Below, piece by piece: positions 5,779 through 11,964 of a DNA stretch of 64,000 nt (position 1 is its first letter; each line of letters begins with the position of its first letter). Source of the stretch: [Clostridium] aerotolerans DSM 5434. Its GTDB lineage: Bacteria > Bacillota > Clostridia > Lachnospirales > Lachnospiraceae. The DNA lies in the NCBI RefSeq assembly GCF_000687555.1, contig NZ_JHWJ01000005.1, forward strand, positions 186,001 to 250,000, written 5' to 3'. The notes under the pieces are model-generated. The model did not search any database and was not told the DNA's origin. It worked only from the letters and a program-made list of their open reading frames with translations. The translations under genes were made by a program, and so were the position numbers.

Positions 5779-6237
5779 GCAATCACCTCCAAATTTCTTG
5801 CCGCCAAAATAATTACTAACATAATCAGCGGTCAACAATATTCTTTGTGGTCTGTCATTTTAACACAAAATTAGCATTCATTTTACAAAAAAATGACAAA
5901 CCTTAGTAAGTATAGCATAAACCTTAAAACAACACAATCCTTTTTCCGCCCCACAAAGACAGATATTTTTAAGGTTTTTAAAGAGAAATATTTAGAATTC
6001 CAGATTTTTCGAGGCTTTTACTTAAAAAAATCATAAGAAAATCTACAATAATTTTACCAAAGTATGGTATCATTTTAGTTACATGCCTTCAATGAGGTCT
6101 CATAATAATTTGTATCAATAATGTTTTGGTACTTGGTTGTATCTACAACAAACAAAGAGGAAATGTTATGGTATGATAGTACCTACGAAAGATAGTTTGA
6201 AAAACATTTACTTATTACCATCAGAAAGGAAGAAACT
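5779..6237. other. 459-nt divergent gap between pit and the three-gene cassette
   Basis: AT-rich region with no gene. For the plus-strand cassette a TATGAT (6172-6177) is the best -10 but lacks a good -35. Nearby are two inverted repeats: GTTGT-ATCT-ACAAC (6136-6149), and GGTACT (6128-6133) with AGTACC (6178-6183), the second flanking the first. These could be an operator. I found no riboswitch fold. Confidence 0.4.
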
Positions 6238-7491
6238 ATGTCAAATCATTTGAAAGTAACTGATACTATATATGATATAACAGAAAAATACCCGGAGACA
6301 ATCAACTTCTTTGTGGCTAACGGCTTTGATAAAATGAGCAACCCCATCATGCGAAACACCATTGGAAAGACAGTCACACTGGAAATGGCTCTTTCCATGA
6401 GAAAGATGAATGCGGAGGCATTCCTTGCAAAACTTGATGAGGTCATTAATCAGGCGCTTCCGGATGCGGGATCAGGACTTGCTCCTATGGTAAAGGAAGA
6501 TGGCGGTGATATCAGAATTGAAGGTGTTCTTCCCTGTCCTATCCGCCTTCCGCTAATGGAAAAATTCGAATCCTGGCTCAGCGAACAATCCGATAAGCTT
6601 GGCTATAAAGTGGATTATAATTTGAAATCTGCCAATTTAGGTCTTGATGACGTAAAAGAGCGTGTCGTGGCTGCAAATGGCAATGCAGATGCGCTTTCTG
6701 ATCTTTATTTATCCGCAGGTTTTGATCTTTTCTTTGATAAGGAAATGATGGGCCAATACCGGGAAGCTGGAGAATTTGAAGATATCTCCGGTCTGGATCA
6801 TATTAATCCTGACTTTGATAACGAAAAAATATCCTTAAAGGATCCAAAAGGCCAGTACGCGATTATTGGTGTCGTTCCTGCGATTTTCATGGTAAATACC
6901 AATGTTCTTGGAGATCGTCCTATGCCTGAAAGCTGGGCGGATTTAATGAAGCCTGAATTTGAAAACAGCATCAGCCTTCCCATGAAGGATCTCGATATGT
7001 TTAACGCATTCTTACTCCATATCTACCGCTACTACGGAGAAGAAGGCGTAGAAAAAATGGGTAAGGCACTACTGCGCAGCATGCATCCTGCTCAGATGGT
7101 GAAAGCACATCTTGCAAAGGGAGAGGGTAAAGTCCCGACCATTACGGTTACCCCTTACTTTTTTGCCAGCATGGCTGACGGAAAAGGACCGATGCGTCCC
7201 GTATGGCCAAAGGACGGCGCTATTTTAAGCCCAATCTTCCTTCTGGCAAGAGCAAAGAATAAGGATAAGGTAAAGCCTTTCGTAGACCTTCTTTATTCTA
7301 AGGAAATTGGCGAGATCCTTTCCTCCAACGGAAAATTCCCATCTACCAATCCTCTGGTTGAAAATAATCTAAAAGAAGACCAGAATTTCATGTGGCTTGG
7401 CTGGGACTTTATCCACAATCATGATATCGGCGAACTGATAAAGAACATTGAGCAGAAATTTTATCAGGCGGCAGAAAAGGAGATTTTATGA
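6238..7491 (+). CDS. DUF1858 domain plus solute-binding-protein-like protein
   Basis: 417 residues. Residues 1-70 resemble a DUF1858 domain (TIYDITEKYPETINFFVANGFDKMSNP), a small helical domain often attached to redox or metal proteins. Residues from about 90 resemble an iron/ABC-type extracellular solute-binding fold, with a GVLPCPIRLPL segment and LYLSAGFDLFFDKEMMG. There is no signal peptide or lipobox, so it is predicted to stay in the cytoplasm, which is odd for a binding protein. The start follows GAAAGGAAG. The stop codon overlaps the GTPase start by 4 nt (ATGA), so translation is coupled. The function is not known to me; the context suggests a soluble carrier or sensor of a metal or cofactor working with the GTPase and the ATPase. 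Confidence 0.75.
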   Translation: MSNHLKVTDTIYDITEKYPETINFFVANGFDKMSNPIMRNTIGKTVTLEMALSMRKMNAEAFLAKLDEVINQALPDAGSGLAPMVKEDGGDIRIEGVLPCPIRLPLMEKFESWLSEQSDKLGYKVDYNLKSANLGLDDVKERVVAANGNADALSDLYLSAGFDLFFDKEMMGQYREAGEFEDISGLDHINPDFDNEKISLKDPKGQYAIIGVVPAIFMVNTNVLGDRPMPESWADLMKPEFENSISLPMKDLDMFNAFLLHIYRYYGEEGVEKMGKALLRSMHPAQMVKAHLAKGEGKVPTITVTPYFFASMADGKGPMRPVWPKDGAILSPIFLLARAKNKDKVKPFVDLLYSKEIGEILSSNGKFPSTNPLVENNLKEDQNFMWLGWDFIHNHDIGELIKNIEQKFYQAAEKEIL

Positions 7492-8189
7492 ATCTGATTA
7501 TATTTTCGGGTCCCCCTTCTTCCGGGAAGACCTCCATTATATTAAAGGTCATCGCTTCTTATAATAGAAGAAACATTAAAGTCGGTGTGGTGAAATTCGA
7601 CTGTTTGTATACTGATGACGATGCCGCCTATGAAAAAGCAGGCATCCCCGTAAAAAAAGGATTATCCGGCGCCTTATGCCCGGATCACTTCTTCGCTTCA
7701 AACATTGAAGAGGTGGTCAGCTGGGGCAATCAGGAGAACTTAGATCTCCTGATTACAGAATCAGCAGGATTGTGCAACCGCTGCTCTCCTTACTTAAAGG
7801 ACATTAAAGGCGTTTGTGTCATCGACAACTTATCCGGTATTAATACTCCCAAAAAGATTGGTCCTATGTTAAAATCTGCAGATTTTGTAGTCATCACCAA
7901 GGGAGATATTGTCTCTCAGGCAGAACGTGAAGTTTTCGCTTCCTGTGTAAGCTCAGTCAATCCCCGTGCCGTCACCATGCATGTAAATGGCCTGACCGGA
8001 CAGGGTGCTTATGAACTCGGCAGCTTATTATACGATGAAGATCAGGATATTAAATCGGTTCAGGGCATGAAGCTTCGGTTTCCTATGCCATCTGCACTCT
8101 GCTCCTACTGTCTTGGCGAAACCAGGATCGGAGAAGCTTATCAGATGGGTAATATTAAAAAAATAGATTTGGGGGCTGATAAGAAATGA
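7488..8189 (+). CDS. HypB/UreG/CobW-like nucleotide-binding protein
   Basis: 233-residue SIMIBI-class P-loop GTPase related to the metal chaperones HypB, UreG and CobW. The Walker A motif is GPPSSGKT (8-15), the switch region is TESAGLC (90-96) and the base-specificity motif is TKGD (137-140). Candidate metal ligands are unusually rich: CPDH (64-67), CxxC at C96/C99 right after the ESAG switch, and CSYC (205-208) near the C-terminus. In HypB and UreG similar cysteines and histidines bind nickel or zinc and move it in response to GTP hydrolysis. It overlaps both neighbours by 4 nt. I infer a metallocentre or cofactor insertion role; the client is unknown. Confidence 0.8.
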   Translation: MNLIIFSGPPSSGKTSIILKVIASYNRRNIKVGVVKFDCLYTDDDAAYEKAGIPVKKGLSGALCPDHFFASNIEEVVSWGNQENLDLLITESAGLCNRCSPYLKDIKGVCVIDNLSGINTPKKIGPMLKSADFVVITKGDIVSQAEREVFASCVSSVNPRAVTMHVNGLTGQGAYELGSLLYDEDQDIKSVQGMKLRFPMPSALCSYCLGETRIGEAYQMGNIKKIDLGADKK

Positions 8190-9190
8190 CAAACTGGACA
8201 ATTTCAAAGATATTAGAAGAATACCCATACTCTTTGTCTTACTTTGAGCAGAATAAATTAGACATCACAGGATTTGAGAATCAGACACTGGAAGAATATT
8301 TAGATCATTTTACCGAAATAGAATTAGAGGATCAGGCCATTGATAAAGAAAAGGTCTTATCCGATCTTCCCGTTTATATCGAACAGATGCAGGCGTTTCT
8401 TGGTATCGAAAAGAAGAACCAGGTACTCTCTCTGACCATTCTTGCGGGACATGATAAATCAGGAGTGACGGAAGGCTTTGAGGAGCTGACCATTCACACC
8501 TCTCAGATTATCTCCATTGTAGGCCCTACTGGTTCCGGGAAAAGCCGCCTTCTTGCAGATATCGAGTGGGCAGCTCAAAATGATACACCTACCGGCCGGA
8601 GTATCCGCATTAACGGAGAAGTACCGGATAATAAGTGGCGCTTCTCTTCCAATAACCGTTTGGTCGCTCAGCTTTCTCAGAACATGAACTTTGTTATGGA
8701 TTTAACAGTTGAGGATTTCTTAAACATGCATGCAGTCAGCCGTCTGGTGGAGGACCCACAGTCAGTGATCAATGAAATCATAAAAGCGGCCAATAATCTG
8801 GCTGGCGAGAAGTTTGATCTGACCACGCCGGTAACCAGCTTAAGCGGAGGCCAGTCAAGAGCTCTTATGATTGCAGATACTGCTATTTTAAGCTCCTCTC
8901 CCATTGTTCTCATTGATGAAATTGAAAATGCAGGAATTGACCGAAAAAAAGCCCTGGAGCTTTTAGTCACCTCAGATAAAATCGTCTTGATGGCGACCCA
9001 TGACCCATTGCTTGCACTTATGGCAGATAAGAGAATTGTCATTAAAAACGGTGGAATCAGCAAAGTCATCCACACCAGTGACGAAGAAAAAGAGCTGTTA
9101 AAAGAACTGGAAAAGATGGACACCCTCATTCAGCATGCAAGACAGGAACTTAGAAAAGGAAGCAATTTAACTTCTGATCTGTTAGGATAA
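8186..9190 (+). CDS. ABC-type ATPase with DUF1858-like N-terminus, no permease partner
   Basis: 334 residues. Residues 1-75 form a helical region that resembles the DUF1858-like start of the first gene in the cassette (TISKILEEYPYSLSYFEQNKLDITGF). Residues about 80-300 are an ABC ATPase with Walker A GPTGSGKS (113-120), signature LSGGQ (219-223), Walker B IVLIDE (240-245) and the switch histidine in ATHD (H272). The C-terminal 40 residues are charged and helical. No membrane protein is encoded nearby, so this is unlikely to power a standard importer. A soluble ATPase that works on a protein or metallocofactor, as AtwA does for methyl-coenzyme M reductase, is a better analogy. A strong terminator follows at once. 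Confidence 0.8.
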   Translation: MTNWTISKILEEYPYSLSYFEQNKLDITGFENQTLEEYLDHFTEIELEDQAIDKEKVLSDLPVYIEQMQAFLGIEKKNQVLSLTILAGHDKSGVTEGFEELTIHTSQIISIVGPTGSGKSRLLADIEWAAQNDTPTGRSIRINGEVPDNKWRFSSNNRLVAQLSQNMNFVMDLTVEDFLNMHAVSRLVEDPQSVINEIIKAANNLAGEKFDLTTPVTSLSGGQSRALMIADTAILSSSPIVLIDEIENAGIDRKKALELLVTSDKIVLMATHDPLLALMADKRIVIKNGGISKVIHTSDEEKELLKELEKMDTLIQHARQELRKGSNLTSDLLG

Positions 9191-9203: not shown

Positions 9204-9260
9204 AAAAGAGCTGTTGGTAAGGCAAAGAAAATATTCTTTTGGCCCTCCAACAGCTCTTTT
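9204..9260. terminator. Bidirectional terminator between cassette and pepT
   Basis: Perfect 14-bp stem: AAAAGAGCTGTTGG (9204-9217) pairs with CCAACAGCTCTTTT (9247-9260). An A-run lies before it and a T-run after it, so it can stop transcription from both sides. Confidence 0.92.
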
Positions 9261-10680: not shown

Positions 10681-11964
10681 CTAACGGTTAGCCAGTTCCC
10701 TGGTTATATCTTCCCAGGTAACACCTTTTTGAGCCATTAGAACCATCATATGATAAAGAAAATCTGAAATTTCGTATTTTACTTCTTCCGGGTTTGGATT
10801 TTTAGCAGCGATAATAATTTCTGTGGACTCTTCTCCCAGCTTTTTCAGTATTTTATCCAGTCCCTTATCAAAGAGGTAATTGGTATAAGAGCCTTCCTTG
10901 GGGTTGATTTTTCTATCGAGAATCACCTGGAAGACCTCTTCAAATACCTTAAGTGGATTGGAGTCCTTGAATTCTTTTTTAATCAGGCTCTGGTAGAAAC
11001 AGCTTTGCTCTCCTGTATGGCAGGCAGCCCCGATCTGATTGACCTTTGCAAGAAGCGTATCATTATCACAATCAAGAGATAAAGCCTTTACATATTGGAA
11101 ATGACCGGAAGTCTCTCCTTTTTTCCAGAGACTTTGACGGCTGCGGCTATAATATGTCATACAGCCGGATTTTAATGTTTCCTTAAAGGCTTCCTCATTC
11201 ATGTAGGCCAGCATGAGAACTTCTCCCGTGCGGTATTCCTGAACCACCACCGGAATCAGGCCATCGGAATTTAATTTAAACTGGGAAAATTCCACGCTGC
11301 TTTCAAAGGTATCTACTCCGATGCCCTGGGACTTTAATTCCTGTTTTAAATCCATGAATACGGAATCCTCTAACAGGCAGGCAATAAAGCCATCCACCAG
11401 ATCCAGCTTTAAGGAGTCTGAAAGCATATTTTCATCAGAACCAGTCAGTAGAAAATGTTCCTCACAAGAGGAAATTGCTAAAAGGGTCTCCTCCGTAAGG
11501 TCCGGGTCACCAAGAATCATGACCGAAGCTCCCAGCTGAGCATATTCTTTGGTTCGGTTAAGGTAGGAGGAATCTGGTAAATAGGCATAGATCTTATCGT
11601 CTCCAAACCGGTCAGCGGCTTCTTTCATAAGGTCTACATTGTCATCATCCCCTGCATCGAGAAATGCAGCCTTTGATCCAGCATAGAGATATTTTTTTAC
11701 ATCTTCCAGCCGCTTTACTCTGCCTCCGGCAATGACAGGGATATCTGAAAGCCTGACGATCTCTTTGATCAGACCAATGTTTTTTTCATGGTCTTCTTCC
11801 GTATCCGATAAATCATAAATAAATAGTTCATCTGCCCCGCTGTCTCCAAAATAACGGGCCAAAGATAGCAGGTCTTCCTTATAACAGGCCTGTAGGTCAT
11901 CAAGCCTGCACGCCTTGCCCTGCCGTATGCCAAAACCTGCAATCAGTTTTTTGCATTCCATCAA
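10681..11964 (-). CDS. hisIE: HisIE with N-terminal degenerate HisF-like domain
   Basis: 427 residues in three parts. Residues about 1-215 resemble a HisF/HisA half-barrel protein ([17 protein letters not shown] start, [18 protein letters not shown]). However, the HisF catalytic Asp of CLDVKDG is replaced (GFGIRQG), and the second catalytic Asp is not evident. Residues about 225-330 are phosphoribosyl-AMP cyclohydrolase (HisI) with the metal acids D298, D300 and D302 and zinc ligands C315, H316 and C322. Residues about 337-427 are phosphoribosyl-ATP pyrophosphatase (HisE) with [14 protein letters not shown] and ISDFLYH. It catalyses steps 2 and 3 of histidine synthesis. The start overlaps hisA by 4 nt. 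The extra domain may be structural; a standalone HisF is still needed. Confidence 0.9.

Follow-up and report, generated by a model that had tools for sequence, protein, structure and literature searches.

Nucleotide-driven metallochaperones are already known. The GTPase UreG carries a Cys-Pro-His motif, CooC of nickel carbon monoxide dehydrogenase (CODH) is a MinD-type ATPase, and the binding protein FbpA of ferric importers holds its iron with two tyrosines, a histidine, and a glutamate. The locus described here brings together an unusual set of such parts. It lies in a 64,000-nucleotide stretch of DNA from [Clostridium] aerotolerans DSM 5434 (contig NZ_JHWJ01000005.1, positions 186,001 to 250,000), termed the window, and is a cassette of three genes that encode a binding-protein-like protein with a DUF1858 domain (protein 1), a HypB/UreG/CobW-like GTPase (protein 2), and a soluble ATP-binding cassette (ABC) ATPase (protein 3). 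With moderate confidence, the cassette is read as a metal-handling machine of the cytosol that is driven by nucleotides, is produced along with the hybrid cluster protein Hcp in the nitric-oxide response through an HcpR-type regulator, and passes metal to Hcp. This reading is best supported in its regulatory link, while the client and the metal are what we infer. Among the matches listed by literature searches that mostly covered papers outside subscription journals, none describes the cassette.

The regulatory link comes from the promoters. In the available text of Rodionov et al. 2005 (PMC1274295), the operator of the HcpR2 branch is given as GTAACnnnnGTTAC, other motifs are reported for C. 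thermocellum and C. difficile, in which residue 181 of the helix is Ser, and clostridial HcpR regulons are extended. According to the available text of PMC12915319, the HcpR of C. difficile activates frdX-hcp under nitric oxide. Neither text names the cassette as an HcpR regulon member, a statement that covers those texts and not Table S1, Figure 2, or RegPrecise. The promoters of 76 homologous loci were compared, with the window excluded and one of the 77 loci that have a binding-protein gene dropped for having less than 120 nt upstream. Exact copies of GTAACnnnnGTTAC stand upstream of 40 of the 76 cassettes, and an exact variant, GTTGTnnnnACAAC, stands in 18 further promoters, 16 of which belong to Lacrimispora-like loci (L004-L021). 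With at most one mismatch, either motif is found in 67/76 promoters, compared to a mean of 0.83 and a maximum of 4 in 100 dinucleotide shuffles (mean 0.01 for the exact motif over 100 rounds). Such sites occur in every promoter with Hcp nearby (29/29) and in 38/47 of those without. These counts support well the view that the cassette is under HcpR-type control, through which it would be induced by nitric oxide.

The genome that contains the window (4.73 Mb) has five exact copies of GTTGTnnnnACAAC. Three of these lie before the cassette (window position 6136), some 170-180 bp upstream of hcp, and next to a Crp/Fnr gene; the other two lie within a histidine-kinase-like gene and near infC-like and ribosomal-protein-like genes (named by eye). 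The Crp-family gene has the same operator adjoining it and, by the numbering of this analysis, a Ser at helix position 181; it is treated as a putative HcpR-type regulator and termed HcpR-like. Its helix reads R-S-A-L-S-S, compared to R-P-S-L-S-R in most GTAAC-type neighbors, which fits the published idea that the helix sets the motif. The run opposite this gene encodes a cupin, a 194-residue partial-Prismane (Hcp/CODH) protein, an unknown 201-residue protein, and a hemerythrin-domain protein. In some genomes, the operators of hcp and of the cassette agree in form: both have the GTAAC form (GTAACnnnnGTTAC) in G413, the GTTGC form (GTTGCnnnnGCAAC) in G452, and the GTTGT form in G000, while in G395 the GTTGT form is exact at hcp and has one mismatch at the cassette.

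The second line of evidence is gene neighborhood. Searching genome contigs with the GTPase gave 448 encoding stretches, and the best 80 were kept as loci. The three cassette genes stay together, forming neighbor clusters of 79, 77, and 77 members among the 80 loci. The sequence-only reading had left the client open and had proposed a neighborhood survey for a conserved one; this survey brought out Hcp as the commonest further neighbor. Hcp is found at 30 loci by clustering and at one more, where the contig ends within the gene, by a tblastn search that covered all 80 (31/80); L080, which has no GTPase open reading frame in the table, is missing from the 79 rows of this linkage count. The next clusters reach at most 12 loci. 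Of the 64 loci that extend 3.5 kb or more downstream, 28 have Hcp. Three arrangements occur (cassette-Hcp, cassette-Crp-Hcp, and Hcp-cassette), and the linkage spans several families of Clostridia, Tissierellia, and Negativicutes; at the Lacrimispora-like loci, Hcp does not adjoin the cassette. A 2026 survey of CODH/HCP contexts (PMC13056359, available text) reports a large variety of Hcp neighbors, with those of class I HCP being mainly iron-sulfur (Fe-S) proteins (18%) and regulators (17%); that text names no such cassette.

Across taxonomic draws, the distribution of any cassette GTPase is patchy (44/299 genomes in the phylum draw, 14/243 in the class draw). Window-type genomes, defined by a GTPase of at least 73% identity, number 19 across both draws, and 9 of these have Hcp within 5 kb of their GTPase gene (G413, G353, G158, G209, G076, G251, G172, G196, and G122). 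Hcp scores above its cut-off in all 19, compared to 212/299 phylum-draw genomes, and it is present in 51/55 genomes with any cassette type. Co-occurrence was rejected as a stand-alone argument; it is weak because Hcp is so common. A tree was built from 41 Hcp proteins, in which 16 rows carry the window-type label and 5 rows from genomes with more distant cassettes are kept separate; the label needs 8 changes on it, and at least 6 of these are forced by well-supported branches. In a quick tree of 96 GTPase rows, where some long branches outside the window's clade are unsure, all 27 Hcp-linked rows fall inside the window's clade of 55 rows (Shimodaira-Hasegawa-like approximate likelihood ratio test, SH-aLRT, 100). 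Among the loci fetched, Hcp linkage is limited to this clade.

The proteins themselves have features that fit metal handling. The profile searches suggested earlier gave matches to DUF1858, SBP_bac_6, cobW, and ABC_tran; the HypB model stayed below its cut-off. In protein 1, the DUF1858 domain is followed by a SBP_bac_6 domain (Pfam E 2.3e-76), and an LPCP motif with Cys100 is invariant. Its predicted model has the two-lobed fold of the ferric-ion-binding protein FbpA, and iron-binding proteins make up all of its top 20 structural matches (18 of FbpA/SfuA/HitA type and 2 FutA1), many of them mutant forms of a single H. influenzae protein. A signal peptide was not seen in any of 53 sequences including the window's (maximum 17-residue hydropathy of 1.25 in the first 60 residues), nor was a lipobox, with a Cys within the first 40 residues in 0/53, which agrees with the original description of a binding protein lacking both.

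Protein 2 scores 45.5 bits against PF02492 (cobW; cut-off 20.7) and falls below the curated equivalog cut-offs of HypB (54.5 vs 121.2) and UreG (31.2 vs 204.2); its sequence matches to known structures include UreG 5xkt and HypB 2hf8. The guanine motif K-x-D is formed by K138 and D140. Three Cys/His clusters had been noticed in the window's protein, and all three proved invariant in 96/96 sequences, after near-identical ones had been thinned before alignment. By sequence, C64-P-D-H67 together with C96 has the makeup of a Cys/His metal site in the G domain. Stop codons were reported within some distant GTPase matches from the taxonomic draws; these are not read as recoding, as at the two loci inspected (L100 and L101) there is an intact frame of 227 residues, which the match apparently overruns.

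In protein 3, the P-loop (residues 113-120) is invariant or nearly so across 54 sequences, and LSGGQ (219-223), D244-E245, and H272 are invariant, so that the nucleotide-binding domain appears complete by its motifs. The N-terminal helical domain weakly resembles DUF1858, with helix order and spacing alike in the models of the two domains. A fold search with this N-terminal domain gave match lists full of ATPase-domain matches and no informative one, and an anti-phage role for the protein was rejected, the only matches being generic ATPase-domain ones.

From these parts, the following mechanism can be proposed. The proposed cargo of the FbpA-fold protein is a metal (most likely iron) or an intermediate that carries metal, with the invariant cysteine of the LPCP motif as a possible binding site. 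Through its Cys/His clusters, the HypB/UreG-like GTPase would hand this cargo on, and the soluble ABC ATPase may drive the opening of either the binding protein or the client. The DUF1858-type helical domains of proteins 1 and 3 could serve as docking modules. The most likely client would be Hcp, whose hybrid iron-sulfur-oxygen cluster would be assembled or repaired in nitrosative stress. The sequence-only reading had already proposed a soluble machine for the loading or activation of a metal or metallocofactor. The FbpA-like model, the invariant clusters, and the finding of no conserved permease of the two types searched favor it; metal movement, the metal, and the client are putative.

More distant cassettes keep the GTPase and the ABC ATPase and swap their partners. 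FecE/FecB/FecC-like genes adjoin the cassettes of L097, L147, L148, and L149, which have a methyltransferase, and of L098, which does not. At L097 (4439-13418), two cassettes flank one FecE/FecB/FecC importer and an S-adenosylmethionine (SAM) methyltransferase. A TauABC-like importer and a divergent Crp gene accompany L106, L109, L110, and L111, with promoters that carry GTAACnnnnGATAC. This type of importer, NitT/TauT, is the one tied to clade B CODHs in the available text of PMC6344411. All of these importers have their own permeases, ATPases, and lipoprotein-like binding proteins. Behind the cassettes of L103 (8880-10875) and L150 (8824-10812) come genes for a heavy-metal-chelation protein (DUF4213/DUF364), a methyltransferase, and an NTPase_1 protein, the last two profiled in L150 only. 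At L142 (6360-12580), a distant cassette (GTPase 42-43% identity) occurs with a Crp-family gene, a NifH-like protein, and two nitrogenase-component-1-like proteins, and its SBP_bac_6 protein has no obvious signal peptide.

In a group with GTPases of 36-40% identity (L116-L120, L122, L124-L131, and L133-L136), the binding protein is replaced by a PF04060 Fe-S-motif protein of about 220 residues with an N-terminal motif, which adjoins 18/18 GTPase genes (PF04060 was profiled in L116 and L119). L121, L123, and L132, which have no GTPase open reading frame in the table, and the G103 region stand outside these 18. The loci fetched for this group have no further conserved neighbor. The wider family is read here as one of metal or metallocluster handling.

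Several observations weigh against Hcp as the dedicated client. Most Hcp-bearing genomes lack the cassette (GTPase in 44/299, Hcp in 212/299), and the window's own genome has Hcp on a different contig. Hcp of E. coli is functional, and we know of no such cassette in E. coli. The label on the Hcp tree is more clustered than in 500 shuffles (8 changes vs a mean of 12.9), with one genome (G006) supplying 3 of the 16 labeled rows, and the loci are mutually related, so that the counts are not independent. On the side of the operator, the window is where the variant GTTGTnnnnACAAC was derived from in the first place, and 16 of the 18 other exact copies come from Lacrimispora-like loci. Either motif at up to one mismatch is missing from 9/76 promoters, two of which (L022 and L059) carry GTTGCnnnnGCAAC, and is present in only 7 of 14 window-type promoters from the taxonomic draws. 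No matching pair of operators at hcp and cassette was found in G322, G374, G430, G006, G209, G076, and G251. A genome-wide excess of the variant was considered and rejected: the reversed control pattern also occurs 5 times vs 5, and therefore only the positions of the sites carry weight. Several HcpR2 regulons comprise hcp genes only, according to the available text of PMC1274295. Finally, shared regulation is no proof of maturation.

The main rival explanation is a general iron or Fe-S repair system that re-metallates nitric-oxide-damaged proteins in nitrosative stress, with Hcp a mere regulon neighbor. This would account for the HcpR-type operators where Hcp does not adjoin (the 38/47 loci above), for the cassette being present in only some Hcp-bearing genomes, and for the hemerythrin-domain gene at the genome's own HcpR-like locus. 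It is nevertheless considered unlikely, if a serious contender, since Hcp is the only neighbor that recurs strongly (30/80 loci by clustering, compared to at most 12 for the next) and cassette and Hcp are co-located in differing arrangements. The recurrent linkage to one enzyme also speaks against a cytosolic sensor or store of iron or iron-nitrosyl complexes with no dedicated client, an idea that the cytosolic binding-protein fold and the nitric-oxide-type operator would suit; two complete NTPase motor sets would be costly for storage, and such a role is very unlikely. Somewhat less improbable, though still doubtful, is a metal-chelate system, in which the distant relatives process FecBCD/TauABC-type imports and the window's clade an internal chelate. 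The FecE/FecB/FecC-like, TauABC-like, or DUF364/DUF4213 genes beside relatives speak for it, but no importer was found conserved beside the window's clade with the FecC- and TauC-like queries, and among the fetched loci Hcp is linked to that clade only.

The presence of SBP_bac_6 and ABC_tran domains raises the question of an ordinary ABC importer whose permease is encoded elsewhere. In 80 window-type loci, covering up to 8 kb on each side, a FecC query matched at three (L007, L008, and L009) and a TauC query at one (L067), these two being the permease kinds searched for; at one locus of 72 (L058), the ABC gene is followed after 38 nt by a gene whose product has 10 predicted membrane segments. 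The sequence-only reading had stated that no permease accompanies the cassette and had named a linked permease, or a lipoprotein signal on homologues, as what would speak for an importer; neither was found in the window's clade with the two permease types searched. A permease elsewhere in the genome is possible. However, with no export signal in 53 sequences, such permeases at 4/80 loci, a GTPase with invariant Cys/His clusters in the operon, and importers in relatives that bring their own ATPase and lipoprotein-like binding protein, an ordinary importer was rejected for the window's clade and is judged extremely improbable. The nickel analogy drawn earlier (HypB, UreG, CooC, and AtwA) does not match the context: neighbors and operators point to an iron-sulfur-oxygen enzyme, Hcp, and to the nitric-oxide response. 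Nickel insertion into hydrogenase, urease, or CODH was rejected: no such client was seen by eye among neighbor clusters in at least 4/80 loci, an inspection that no profile search aimed at these enzymes accompanied.

Delivery of metal to Hcp may be one case of something broader. Tentatively, and with rather less confidence, the family can be viewed as “internalized importers”, in which a cytosolic ferric-binding fold, a Cys-rich HypB-like GTPase, and a soluble ABC ATPase would form a general metallocluster loader. Different clades would then serve Hcp or a nitrogenase-like enzyme (L142), or use the PF04060 protein instead of the binding protein, with DUF1858-type domains for docking.

The open reading frames of the window and the fold of the hairpin behind them agree with the view that the three plus-strand genes, with two 4-nt overlaps and a strong terminator, act as one unit (Table 1). 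The GTPase had been called the third protein, but it is encoded by the second gene, and the ABC ATPase by the third. None of 200 shuffles folds as well as the terminator hairpin, which is possibly common to the cassette and a convergent gene for an M20-family peptidase downstream. An automated scan with a loop limit of 8 nt missed this hairpin (yield of 2 vs 3.1 by chance). Upstream, on the opposite strand, are a PHO4-family transporter gene and a DUF47/PhoU-type gene. The closest named relatives by search are Lacrimispora and Clostridium sp. strains; the GTPase of the anaerobe Clostridium sp. 12(A) (L005) is 99% identical. Elsewhere in the window (10681-11964, minus strand) is a 427-residue fusion of a partial His_biosynth (HisA/HisF-type) barrel with PRA-CH and PRA-PH (HisI/HisE) domains; the barrel covers positions 23-126 of the 228 in the profile, and a full His_biosynth gene adjoins. 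At two related loci, L009 and L020, suf-like genes lie directly behind the cassette, which by eye we take to be sufC and sufB/sufD of Fe-S assembly.

Table 1. Positions of cassette features in the window and of the related regulator locus in the same genome.
Feature	Position	Strand	Description
Candidate HcpR-type operator GTTGTATCTACAAC	6136-6149	.	perfect 5+4+5 palindrome starting 102 bp before first start codon
Binding-protein-like gene (protein 1)	6238-7491	+	417 aa; DUF1858 residues 8-62, SBP_bac_6 residues 152-394; predicted cytosolic (no export signal seen)
DUF1858 domain (protein 1)	6259-6423	+	Pfam PF08984 E 3.7e-18; 2fi0 by sequence profile E 3.3e-07
HypB/UreG/CobW-like GTPase gene (protein 2)	7488-8189	+	233 aa; PF02492 E 8.2e-12
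GTPase cluster C64-P-D-H67	7677-7688	+	invariant, 96/96 sequences
GTPase cluster C96-x-R-C99	7773-7784	+	invariant, 96/96 sequences
GTPase cluster C205-x-x-C208	8100-8111	+	invariant, 96/96 sequences
Soluble ABC ATPase gene with N-terminal helical domain (protein 3)	8186-9190	+	334 aa; PF00005 E 5.9e-15
DUF1858-like helical domain (protein 3, N-terminal)	8186-8410	+	hhalign to protein 1 DUF1858: probability 60.7%, P 8.2e-5
Rho-independent terminator	9204-9260	.	fold -28.9 kcal/mol, z -5.97
HcpR-like Crp/Fnr locus, own genome	L139:5465-8607 = C9:143464-146606	divergent from cupin run	operator GTTGTAATAACAAC between

Hcp is central to nitric-oxide defense in anaerobes, and how its hybrid cluster comes to be built or repaired is, to our knowledge and by our literature searches, an open question. 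With a dedicated accessory cassette, linked to Hcp through both position and operator, this question can be tested directly. Such a cassette would also give DUF1858 a role and be a case of the ABC-importer toolkit being reused inside the cell. If the internalized-importer reading is true, the cassette of the window's clade would become the first system known to build or repair the hybrid cluster.

Each part of the cassette has a known counterpart from which it also departs. The GTPase resembles HypB, UreG, and CobW in its cobW domain, its K-x-D motif, its CPDH where UreG has Cys-Pro-His, and its matches to UreG and HypB structures. It differs in scoring below the HypB and UreG cut-offs and in having two further invariant CxxC pairs, while the operon adds a binding protein and an ABC ATPase and its context is Hcp, not hydrogenase or urease. 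Compared to FbpABC ferric importers, the cassette has no signal peptide and no linked permease was found, and it adds DUF1858, the DUF1858-like domain, and the GTPase. The ABC ATPase is soluble like SufC/SmsC of Fe-S assembly and PhnK of carbon-phosphorus lyase; its fold matches to them are generic to ABC domains, and the cassette has no SufB/D or Phn partner. With CooC/CooT/CooJ it shares a family of possible clients, as Hcp and CODH belong to one family (PF03063), and CooC is a nucleotide-hydrolyzing maturase (PMC6006190, available text), although both cassette NTPases are of other types than CooC. The likeness to the HcpR regulon is in the promoters, with the published operator at 40/76 cassettes and its variant at the window and 18 others.

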